This document shows, piece by piece, positions 22,879 through 26,580 of a DNA stretch of 40,321 nucleotides. A program made the translations under genes and the position numbers. The stretch covers positions 1-40,321 of the forward strand of contig JAEPKX010000013.1 of the NCBI GenBank assembly GCA_021375695.1, written 5' to 3'. Source of the DNA: Candidatus Igneacidithiobacillus taupoensis (GTDB lineage Bacteria > Pseudomonadota > Gammaproteobacteria > Acidithiobacillales > Acidithiobacillaceae). A model generated the notes under the pieces. The model was given only the letters and a program-made list of their open reading frames with translations, was not told where the DNA came from and ran no database searches. How positions within the stretch are numbered: the first letter of the stretch is position 1; the number at the start of each line of letters is the position of its first letter.

Positions 22879-24141
22879 CTAGCGCCTGCTGGCCAGGGCC
22901 CGCCAGCCAATGTCCCGTCGCATCTGCAGCCCGGGCCAGGACACCATTCTTGCCAATTCATATACCCGTGCCTGCGCCGCCCCGATGGAAGGCGCCAGGG
23001 CTGTGATTCCCAGAACGCGTCCCCCGGCCGTTTGGAACCTGCCCCCATGCCATTGGGTACCAGCATGAAAGATCTTGGCGTTGGGTCCGGGGTCCCGGTC
23101 AAGGCCAAGGATTTCCTGCCCAAGCCTGGGTGCGTCCGGGTAGCCAGGTGCGGCCAGGACTACGCATAGCGCCAGTTGCGTATCCCAGTCGAGTTGGGGG
23201 GGGAGGGCATCTCCCTGTGCTGCCGTCCAGAGGATGGGGAAAAGATCGGAGCGCAGGCGCATGAGCAGAGGCTGGGTTTCCGGATCTCCCAGACGACAAT
23301 TGAATTCTAGGACTTTGGGACCTTCCTGGGTAATCATCAGGCCCGCATAGAGAAATCCCCGGTACGGTAGTGCCTCCAGCGACAGGGCCTTGGCCGTGGG
23401 GAGCATGATTTCTCGGCGCACCCTTTCGATCATGGCCGGATTCAGGATGGGGGTGGGGGAGTAGGCGCCCATGCCGCCGGTATTAGGACCTAGATCACTG
23501 TCCAGCAAGCGTTTGTGATCCTGAGAACCTGCCAGGGGTAGCACCTGTCCGTCGACAACGATGGCAATGAAGCTGGCCTCTTCACCTTGCAGAAATTCTT
23601 CAATGACCACCGGCCCCCACGGCAGAAATTGCTCTAGGGCCCGCTGACCTTCGGTAAAATCCTCGGCAATGACCACCCCTTTACCGGCTGCCAAGCCGTC
23701 TGCCTTGATGACGGTGGGAAAGGATTGTTGCGCCAAAAAGTGAGACGCGCTAGACAAATCCGTAAAACGACCATAGCGCGCCGTCGGGATGCCATGGCGC
23801 TCCATGAAGGCCTTGGCAAAGGATTTGCTACCCTCCAGTTGGGCTGCTGCCTGATTGGGGCCAAAAACGGCTACCCCGGCACGACGCAGATTGTCGGCCA
23901 CCCCTGCCACCAGCGGGGCCTCTGGGCCGATGACCACCAGATTGACCCCGTGCCGGCCAATGGCCTCGAGTAGAGCAGTAGGATCGAGGGGAGAGATGGG
24001 GAGATTATGACACTTGGCCTCGAGGGCTGTGCCCGGGTTGCCGGGAACACAGAGCACGCTTTCCACTTGCGGGGACTGGGCCAGCTTCCAGGCCAAGGCA
24101 TGTTCCCGACCACCCCCACCCAAGACCATGACTGTGCTCAT
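22879..24141 (-). CDS. purD: Phosphoribosylamine-glycine ligase
   Basis: PurD joins glycine to phosphoribosylamine with ATP, step two of purine synthesis. The 420-aa product begins [20 protein letters not shown], the standard N-terminus. This decides for ATG 24141, although the frame is open 150 bases further upstream inside purH. Other landmarks are [14 protein letters not shown], the ATP-grasp segment [24 protein letters not shown]-like [18 protein letters not shown] and [15 protein letters not shown]. It follows purH by 13 bases. Confidence 0.96.
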
Positions 24142-24154
24142 TGCCTTACTCCTG

Positions 24155-25726
24155 TTAGCCGTGCCGGAAGTGGCGGGTTCCCGTAAAGAGCATGGCGATC
24201 CCATGGGTTTCCGCCGCAGCGATGACCTCTTCATCGCGAATGGAGCCACCGGGTTGGACGATGGCTGTGACCCCGGCCTGCCCTGCGGCATCTACTCCGT
24301 CCCGGAACGGGAAAAAGGCATCGGAAGCCAAAACGGCTCCATGCAGATCAAAGCCTAGTTCTGCGGCCTTGGCAGCCCCACAGCGGGCCGCGTCCACCCG
24401 ACTCATTTGGCCGGCACCAATGCCCAAGGTTCGACCATGGGCAGCATAGACGATGGCGTTGGAGCGAACATGCTTGGCCACCTTCCAGGCAAAAATCAGA
24501 TCTCGCTCTTCGCTGGCCGAAGGAGTCCTGGAACTGACCAGGCGCCAATGATCTGGAGATTCCTGGACATCGTCGAAATCCTGAACCAAAAACCCGCCCC
24601 GCACCCGTTTGAAATCCCAGCCACCTCGCTCCTGCCAAAGTTCGAGGGAGTCGGTGACCATAATCCGCAAATTCTTCTTGCGCGACAAAATGGCCATACC
24701 CCCAGGTGTCACGGCGGGGGCCAACAGCACTTCGACGAAGGGTTCCAGCAAGGCTTGGGCCAACTCCTCTTCAATGGGCCGATTGCAGGCAATGACACTC
24801 CCGAAGGCCGAGACAGGGTCTGCTGACCAGGCCCTGGCAAAGGCATCGGCAATATCTTTTCCCAAAGCAACTCCGCATGGATTGCCATGCTTGATGATGG
24901 CGCAGGCTGGTTCGTGAAATTCCCTGACGAGATTGATCGCGGCATCACTATCACCCAGGTTATTGTAAGACAACTCCTTGCCTTGCAGCTGCTTCGCCTG
25001 GCCAAGGCCCCGGTTGCTGCCGTCGCCAAAGAAGGCTGCCCGCTGATGGGGATTCTCTCCGTAGCGTAGTTCCTGCTGTTGCGCAAGCTGCAAGGTGAGG
25101 ATCTGCGGAAAGGTTGCCGGATGTTCTTGATCTTCCAGATAGCGGGAAAGGTGATTGGCAATGACGCCATCATAACGCGCCGTGTGGGCAAAAACCTTGG
25201 CTGCCAGACGAAAACGGAGTTTGCTGCCTACTCCCCCTTGGCTCGCCCGCATTTCCTGCAAGACGGACTCATAATCGTCAGGGTCTACCAGTACCGTGAC
25301 CCACTGCCAGTTTTTGGCCCCGGCACGCAGCATGGTCGGACCACCGATATCGATCTGTTCGATGGCCTCATCCAGGCTCACCCCCTCCTTGTTTACAGTG
25401 GCTTCAAAGGGATACAGGTTGACACACAAGAGATCAATAGCCGGAAAACCCTGGTGGGCCATATCTGCCTGGTGTGCCGGGTCATCGCGCCGGGCGAGCA
25501 AGCCACCATGGATCTTTGGGTGCAAGGTCTTGAGACGACCATCCAGCATTTCTGGAAAACCGGTGTAATCACTGACCTCTTGCACCGTGATGCCGGCCTC
25601 CCGAAGGAGTCTGGCAGTCCCTCCCGTCGAGAGAATATTCACCTGAAATTCCCGGAGTTGACGGGCAAAATCCACAACTCCCCGTTTGTCGGAAACGCTG
25701 ATCAGCGCTCGCGTGATTGCACCCAT
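24155..25726 (-). CDS. purH: AICAR transformylase/IMP cyclohydrolase
   Basis: PurH catalyses the last two steps to IMP. The 523-aa product has the N-terminal cyclohydrolase domain ([46 protein letters not shown]). The C-terminal transformylase domain follows ([13 protein letters not shown], the catalytic Lys-His in [11 protein letters not shown], and [14 protein letters not shown] near the end). GAGGG lies five bases before ATG 25726. It is the first gene of the five-gene operon. A leader of about 130 bases with an intrinsic terminator precedes it, so its expression, and that of all following genes, probably depends on antitermination. Confidence 0.97.
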
Positions 25727-25767
25727 TGTACCCTCAATTCGAGTATGGCTTCTGCCATCGCCATAAG

Positions 25768-25823
25768 CAAAATAAAAAAGGTACGATCAGGAAACCTGTC
25801 GTACCCAAACCTCCTGATGGAGG
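25768..25823 (-). promoter_or_regulatory. Putative transcription attenuator in the purH leader
   Basis: Read on minus, three alternative hairpins are visible. (a) CCTCC-ATCA-GGAGG (25823-25810), a perfect 5-bp stem. (b) A terminator: GGTACGACAGG (25805-25795), loop TTT, CCTGATCGTACC (25791-25780), 11 pairs with one bulged A, followed by TTTTTTATTT. (c) A competing pairing of ATCAGGAGG (25818-25810) with TTTCCTGAT (25794-25786), nine pairs including two G-U, which would use half of both (a) and (b). This is the usual layout of sequestor, antiterminator and terminator. The terminator lies in front of purH, with no other minus-strand gene to terminate. I recognise no known riboswitch; the ligand or factor is unknown. 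Confidence 0.6.
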
Positions 25824-25837
25824 GAGCGTATCGTTCG

Positions 25838-25853
25838 GATCGGTGCACCGATC
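25838..25853. repeat. Perfect 16-bp palindrome in the purH leader
   Basis: GATCGGTGCACCGATC is fully self-complementary. In RNA it would form a 6-bp stem with a TGCA loop right after the predicted start of transcription. In DNA it could bind a dimeric regulator just downstream of the promoter. Both readings remain open. Confidence 0.7.
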
Positions 25854-25863
25854 GGATGACTTA

Positions 25864-25893
25864 ATAATAGACCCGATCAGATAACGTTTGCAA
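25864..25893 (-). promoter_or_regulatory. purH promoter with PurR-like operator
   Basis: On minus, TTGCAA (25893-25888) and TATTAT (25869-25864) are 18 bases apart and point at purH, predicting a leader of about 130 bases. The -35 box is embedded in TTGCAAACGTTATCTG (25893-25878). This agrees with the enterobacterial PurR operator ACGCAAACGTTTTCGT at 11 of 16 positions, including the core GCAAACGTT. E. coli purHD is a known PurR target. Whether this organism has a PurR-type LacI-family repressor is not visible here. Confidence 0.6.
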
Positions 25894-25978: not shown

Positions 25979-26054
25979 GCTCCCATCGTCTAGTGGCCTA
26001 GGACACCGGCCTCTCACGTCGGTAACAGGGGTTCGAACCCCCTTGGGAGCGCCA
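25979..26054 (+). tRNA. tRNA-Glu(CTC)
   Basis: A 76-base cloverleaf: the acceptor GCTCCCA pairs with TGGGAGC. The D-arm region is GTCTAGTGGCCTAGGAC. The anticodon loop CTCTCAC gives anticodon CTC for GAG codons. The T-arm GGGGTTCGAACCCCC is a perfect stem-loop. Discriminator G and encoded CCA follow. No clear terminator follows; only a short T-rich run. Confidence 0.96.
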
Positions 26055-26548: not shown

Positions 26549-26580
26549 CAAAAAAATCGGCTTCCCGAAGGAAGCCGATT
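26549..26580 (-). terminator. Rho-independent terminator of the TonB receptor gene
   Basis: On minus, the stem AATCGGCTTCC/GGAAGCCGATT (11 perfect pairs, stable TTCG loop) is followed by six T's. It begins 19 bases after the receptor stop codon. Confidence 0.95.

Follow-up and report, generated by a model that had tools for sequence, protein, structure and literature searches.

The window analysed here is a 40,321-nucleotide stretch of DNA from a bacterium that, judging by its gene content, presumably belongs to the acidophile family Acidithiobacillaceae. The minus strand of the window carries purH (24155..25726; 523 amino acids, ATG at 25726), preceded by the Shine-Dalgarno sequence GAGGG (25731..25735) and followed on the same strand by purD (22879..24141, with the probable start picked by eye). 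Divergent from the purH leader, a tRNA gene occupies positions 25979-26051 of the plus strand. A strong terminator of 11 pairs followed by TTTTTG lies at 26555-26580, after a gene for a TonB-type receptor.

The purH leader is compact. The best-scoring promoter-like site 5' of its conserved part consists of a -35 element TTGCAA (25888..25893) and, 18 nt away, a -10 element TATTAT (25864..25869), from which a transcript start at about 25857 is predicted. The 5' part of the predicted transcript contains the palindrome GATCGGTGCACCGATC (25853-25838) and can fold into a 5' hairpin, GATCGG-TGCA-CCGATC with a short extension (25835..25856). It is followed by the conserved core (25770..25830, delimited by alignment and by model R1, with which it scores 93.8 bits). 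The core begins with the CU-rich strand ACGCUCCCUCC (25819..25829), which overlaps hairpin 1 (25810..25823), a stem of five pairs with the RNA sequence CCUCC-AUCA-GGAGG. A linker connects hairpin 1 to an intrinsic terminator, GGTACGACAGG-TTT-CCTG-A-TCGTACC (25780..25805), with 11 pairs and one bulged A. The T-run TTTTTTATTTT (25769..25779) provides the predicted 3' end of a small RNA. The promoter, the palindrome, the CCTCC-ATCA-GGAGG hairpin and the terminator with its T-run are thus all present where an earlier note on this DNA had placed them.

The core was compared among 29 genomes of the family, in 26 of which purH was found. It is present as a single copy per genome, and the three scanned family genomes without a match are 61-81% complete. 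Twenty-four copies located upstream of purH in genera g1-g3 were aligned; a further copy linked to purH, the twenty-fifth, is located at the end of a contig. All 24 aligned relatives share 35 consecutive identical bases (core positions 2-36), whereas in the same species only 42% of the columns in the first 540 bases of purH are invariant, the longest invariant run is five, and the four-fold sites of purH differ by 0.50 on average. The conservation begins sharply at the CU-rich strand. The 5' hairpin in front of it behaves differently: each of the 26 copies folded can form it (mean z -2.2), and 25 copies contain 17 distinct stems with pair types changed at every position, so that the structure is kept and the sequence is not. 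None of the five pairs of hairpin 1 varies among the 24 species, and the terminator varies at a single pair, so covariation cannot be used to probe either structure. On the strength of these alignments, the leader contains a real, almost frozen RNA element. The core is absent from two genomes of the order's other family and from the viral contigs, plasmids and phages searched, and a class-wide scan of 369 genomes contained no strong copy outside the family. Eighty distant purH loci also contain no copy of the element, indicating that purH genes in general do not have it as their leader.

The 83-nt leader folds with an energy of -33.7 kcal/mol, far below the mean of -21.1 kcal/mol for shuffled sequences (z -4.35; none of 200 shuffles equals it). 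The earlier note had recognised the layout of an attenuator, in which the segment AUCAGGAGG, the loop and 3' arm of hairpin 1 (25818-25810), can instead pair with UUUCCUGAU in the 3' arm of the terminator (25794-25786). This alternative exists and comprises nine pairs, two of which are G-U. The energy of the duplex formed with AUCAGGAGGUUUG is matched by 1.6% of terminators assembled at random from the same pairs, and that of the C variant of the partner, which occurs in 13 of the 24 relatives, by 0.24%; the alternative is therefore somewhat, and not overwhelmingly, beyond chance. It is retained in 97.5% of the cells across the relatives, so the proposed attenuator does not fail for want of conservation. 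Variants at the loop position are mostly U or C, either of which can pair with G. However, the aligned relatives contain no double changes in the alternative pairing, and shuffles equal the observed covariation. The terminated fold, at -24.4 kcal/mol, is favoured by about 11 kcal/mol over the best fold that holds the alternative (-13.7 kcal/mol). When folding of the growing transcript is followed for the window's leader, hairpin 1, once made, stays formed, and the terminator retains a slight advantage over the alternative even if the CU-rich strand is kept open.

The promoter of the window is a moderate match, with 9 of 12 positions, of a kind common by chance in this region. Nevertheless, a promoter-like site recurs at the same place in 24 of 24 copies, with scores of 5.9-11.8. 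No other recognisable promoter precedes purH: between hairpin 1 or the terminator and the purH ATG, scores in the 24 copies do not rise above those of shuffles. The spacers between terminator and ATG are only 30-59 nt long, and the genes upstream of the leader vary among species, while promoter, element and purH remain together. From this arrangement, purH most likely depends on read-through of the terminator, which makes some control at the level of read-through plausible.

One copy of the core is not linked to purH. It belongs to the genome G021 of genus g4, where it begins at C49:5808 and reads AACGCTCCCTCCATCAGGAGGTTTGGGTACGAC, then TTTTCA, then GTCGTACC and eight T. It shares the same 33 bases of the core and has a 5' hairpin, a terminator and the best-scoring promoter-like site of the set. 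The lower stem of its terminator is unchanged, whereas neither the upper stem nor the antiterminator partner is retained; the alternative duplex amounts to -1.6 kcal/mol, compared with -10.1 to -12.6 kcal/mol in the purH-linked copies. The purH gene of G021 has a separate promoter-like site next to its ATG. In this one genome the core is thus equally conserved with neither purH alongside nor any purine gene near, and the copy is the main evidence that selection keeps the RNA itself and not only the control of purH. TonB-type receptors encoded near the copies in the window and in G021 are only 35% identical, so no shared neighbourhood is claimed.

A sister RNA, here called B, was found through weak matches to Rfam family RF02278 and is present in 25 of the 29 family genomes, one copy in each. 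It consists of GCGCATGTTTCTTCCTCC-TTT-GGTGGTTTT followed by a terminator, which is the same layout as that of the purH-linked RNA, and is equally conserved. The terminators of the two RNAs differ in variety: 20 different ones occur among the 25 genomes with B, and six among the 24 with the purH-linked RNA. This contrast, combined with the G021 copy having lost its upper stem, is the best evidence for an additional constraint on the terminator of purH-linked copies, as expected for an attenuator; since the loss is one change on the tree, the evidence is suggestive only. In locus L203, B, which is CU-rich and nearly invariant, lies at about 1459-1552 (C58:26524-26577 of the window's own genome, outside the window). 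Upstream of it stand GGAACTT and, about 16 nt after that, TCTAA, a combination that by eye resembles a sigma-E-type promoter.

No Rfam family matches the leader at threshold. This result confirms the absence of a ZTP (pfl) riboswitch, a known leader of many purH genes that may overlap a terminator (PMC2864571), and agrees with the earlier note, which saw no match to the riboswitch classes known upstream of purH. A snoRNA match at the start of purH, obtained under permissive E-values, is a chance match. The Soda Lake RNA located beside purH in Thioalkalivibrio was discarded as a candidate, since its length exceeds 350 nt and it is assigned to smtA.

The closest likeness in layout is to small RNAs. 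RF02278, the Betaproteobacteria toxic small RNA family, includes the double-hairpin RNAs ncS03, ncS05, ncS27/bdhR1 and ncS62 (PMC5688073). Like its members, the element is a short RNA with a CU-rich strand, a first hairpin, and a terminator hairpin with a U-run. A longer form of ncS27 is processed to a short core, the CU-rich strand of which is complementary to ribosome-binding sites, with which pairing is predicted (PMC5688073). Membership of the element in RF02278 nevertheless fails: with a gathering cut-off of 50 bits, the family model has no match in the leader at E-values up to 10, and the element is absent among the listed genome matches. In the reverse direction, model R1, applied to loci with RF02278, has its best matches at the RF02278 sites, with weak scores of at most 17.7 bits. 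The RF02278 members examined mostly start with UGUCUCCUCC, many have a CU-rich first loop, and several copies per genome are common; the purH-linked element has the strand ACGCUCCCUCC, the loop AUCA and one copy. The Bordetella RNA S17S is cut by RNase E at the start of its CU-rich strand, and pairing with a ribosome-binding site was shown for one target (PMC11722255). In layout it resembles the element, with a frozen 27-nt 5' region from the CU-rich strand on, a 3' terminator and a longer precursor (PMC11722255), but its precursor, S17L, includes a small ORF as well, and it is not located before a purine gene. RNAs of the alpha-r14 or cuckoo family (NfeR1) share an ultraconserved anti-Shine-Dalgarno motif and hairpin stems that change in sequence (PMC10746234); they contain three hairpins, each with CCUCCUCCC unpaired, whereas the element has a 5' hairpin and two further hairpins and lacks CCUCCUCCC. 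Early-terminated leaders that act in trans, as proposed here, are represented by Rli51, the Listeria mpl leader, which is both an attenuator and a small RNA, and by the 5'-UTR small RNAs ChiZ and IspZ (PMC11394854, PMC7815308), although organisms, genes and sequences are all different. The predicted stabilities are also opposite: the more stable structure is the antiterminator in Rli51 and the terminator in the purH element.

The element has what would be asked of a small RNA gene, namely its own promoter-like site and intrinsic terminator, both recognised in the sequence, and, in one genome, an existence apart from the downstream gene; as would be asked of an attenuator, an intrinsic terminator lies between promoter and gene. 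The lack of covariation, the preference for the terminated fold and the unlinked copy without an antiterminator partner make a small RNA gene the better reading than a switch specific to purH, and it is placed first also because layout and the sharp onset of conservation match S17S and ncS27 and because early-terminated leaders acting in trans are known. The leader probably produces a CU-rich small RNA by early termination, with purHD expressed by read-through. The gene, comprising promoter, 5' hairpin, CU-rich strand, short hairpin and intrinsic terminator, would give an RNA some 85-100 nt long. Transcription would mostly end at the terminator, and the released RNA, possibly trimmed where the conserved core begins, would act in trans. 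The CU-rich strand, complementary in sequence to ribosome-binding sites, is the putative pairing region by analogy to S17S and ncS27 (PMC11722255, PMC5688073) and would bind the ribosome-binding sites of other mRNAs. In most of the family, purH and purD would be transcribed from the same promoter by read-through, so that termination would also set the level of purH. Against the small RNA reading, the stand-alone copy is known from one genome, the matches between the element and RF02278 fail or are weak in both directions, hairpin 1 covers much of the CU-rich strand, and genome sites complementary to the strand are not clearly enriched (30, compared with 21 for the reversed pattern). A search of the genome for targets with GGAGGGAGCGT was uninformative, and no target was established. 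The family has in this element an unlisted, nearly invariant RNA, placed such that its purine operon is apparently transcribed only past the RNA's own terminator.

The earlier note's attenuator dedicated to purH is possible, though we think it rather unlikely. Hairpin 1 and the terminator would be the default state; a factor, whether protein, RNA or ribosome, would open hairpin 1, and AUCAGGAGG would pair with UYUCCUGAU, disrupting the terminator and allowing transcription of purHD. The released RNA would have no role of its own, or attenuation would operate in addition to a small RNA. The conserved leader, the terminator between promoter and gene, the retained nine pairs with loop variants that still pair with G, the frozen upper stem of the terminator in the purH-linked copies, the loss of the partner in the unlinked copy and the apparent dependence of purH on read-through all argue for it. 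The pairing shows no compensatory change, the energies favour termination even with the CU-rich strand open, conservation of the core is no lower in the copy without a neighbouring purH, and the comparison of linked and unlinked copies depends on one genome. The energies would suit an unregulated terminator near the promoter whose sole effect is to lower purH expression, in a leader conserved for DNA or protein binding unrelated to RNA pairing; we regard this as improbable because the run of 35 identical bases, a 5' hairpin that persists while its sequence changes and the layout recurring in sister RNAs point to a function of the RNA. The suggestion that the leader responds to purines finds no support, and a metabolite riboswitch for a compound of the purine pathway is ranked last, as a very remote prospect. 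The core is strongly conserved and located before purH, but no riboswitch family matches it, the G021 copy is away from any purine gene, the distant purH loci lack it, and it contains simple hairpins only and no complex aptamer fold.

The small RNA and regulated attenuator readings are compatible. One RNA might do both jobs, an idea that we consider distinctly improbable: abundant pairing mRNAs or RNA B, the CCUCCU of which is complementary to AGGAGG, would hold hairpin 1 open during transcription, AUCAGGAGG would capture the 3' arm of the terminator, and purHD would be switched on. Such competition, if true, would make the synthesis of purines responsive to the state of the cell's mRNAs. The linked and unlinked copies provide a clean natural comparison for asking whether the terminator of a small RNA can double as an attenuator.

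Together with RNA B, the element suggests that double-hairpin small RNAs pairing with ribosome-binding sites extend beyond Betaproteobacteria. The core is similar beyond shuffles to B (z 4.4) and to two further loci, L141 (z 4.9) and L121 (z 7.4), whereas its direct similarity to one RF02278 member is not above shuffles (z 1.1); an indirect comparison through L141 gives z 4.9 and then z 3.5. L121 (2735-2792, minus strand, on contig 194 of G021) contains ACGCTCC, the hairpin TTCCC-CCATCA-GGGAA, GTTTG and an unrelated terminator, and is a possible relative of the purH-linked RNA; the sole match to it on plasmids is a short, chance-level piece. L141 was matched in the class-wide scan with an E-value of 9e-4 in one genome, which is not significant over 369, and was retained with three weaker matches solely as possible layout relatives. 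One weaker match, L144, looks like a plain terminator. In L141, which comes from one gammaproteobacterial genome, a related double-hairpin RNA occurs in three close copies within about 280 bases (1281-1563), with RF02278 scores of 25-35 bits. Another related CU-rich RNA, at L143 (1501-1568), has a strong promoter-like site (TTGACA, TATAAT) and lies a little upstream of putative rplM and rpsI.
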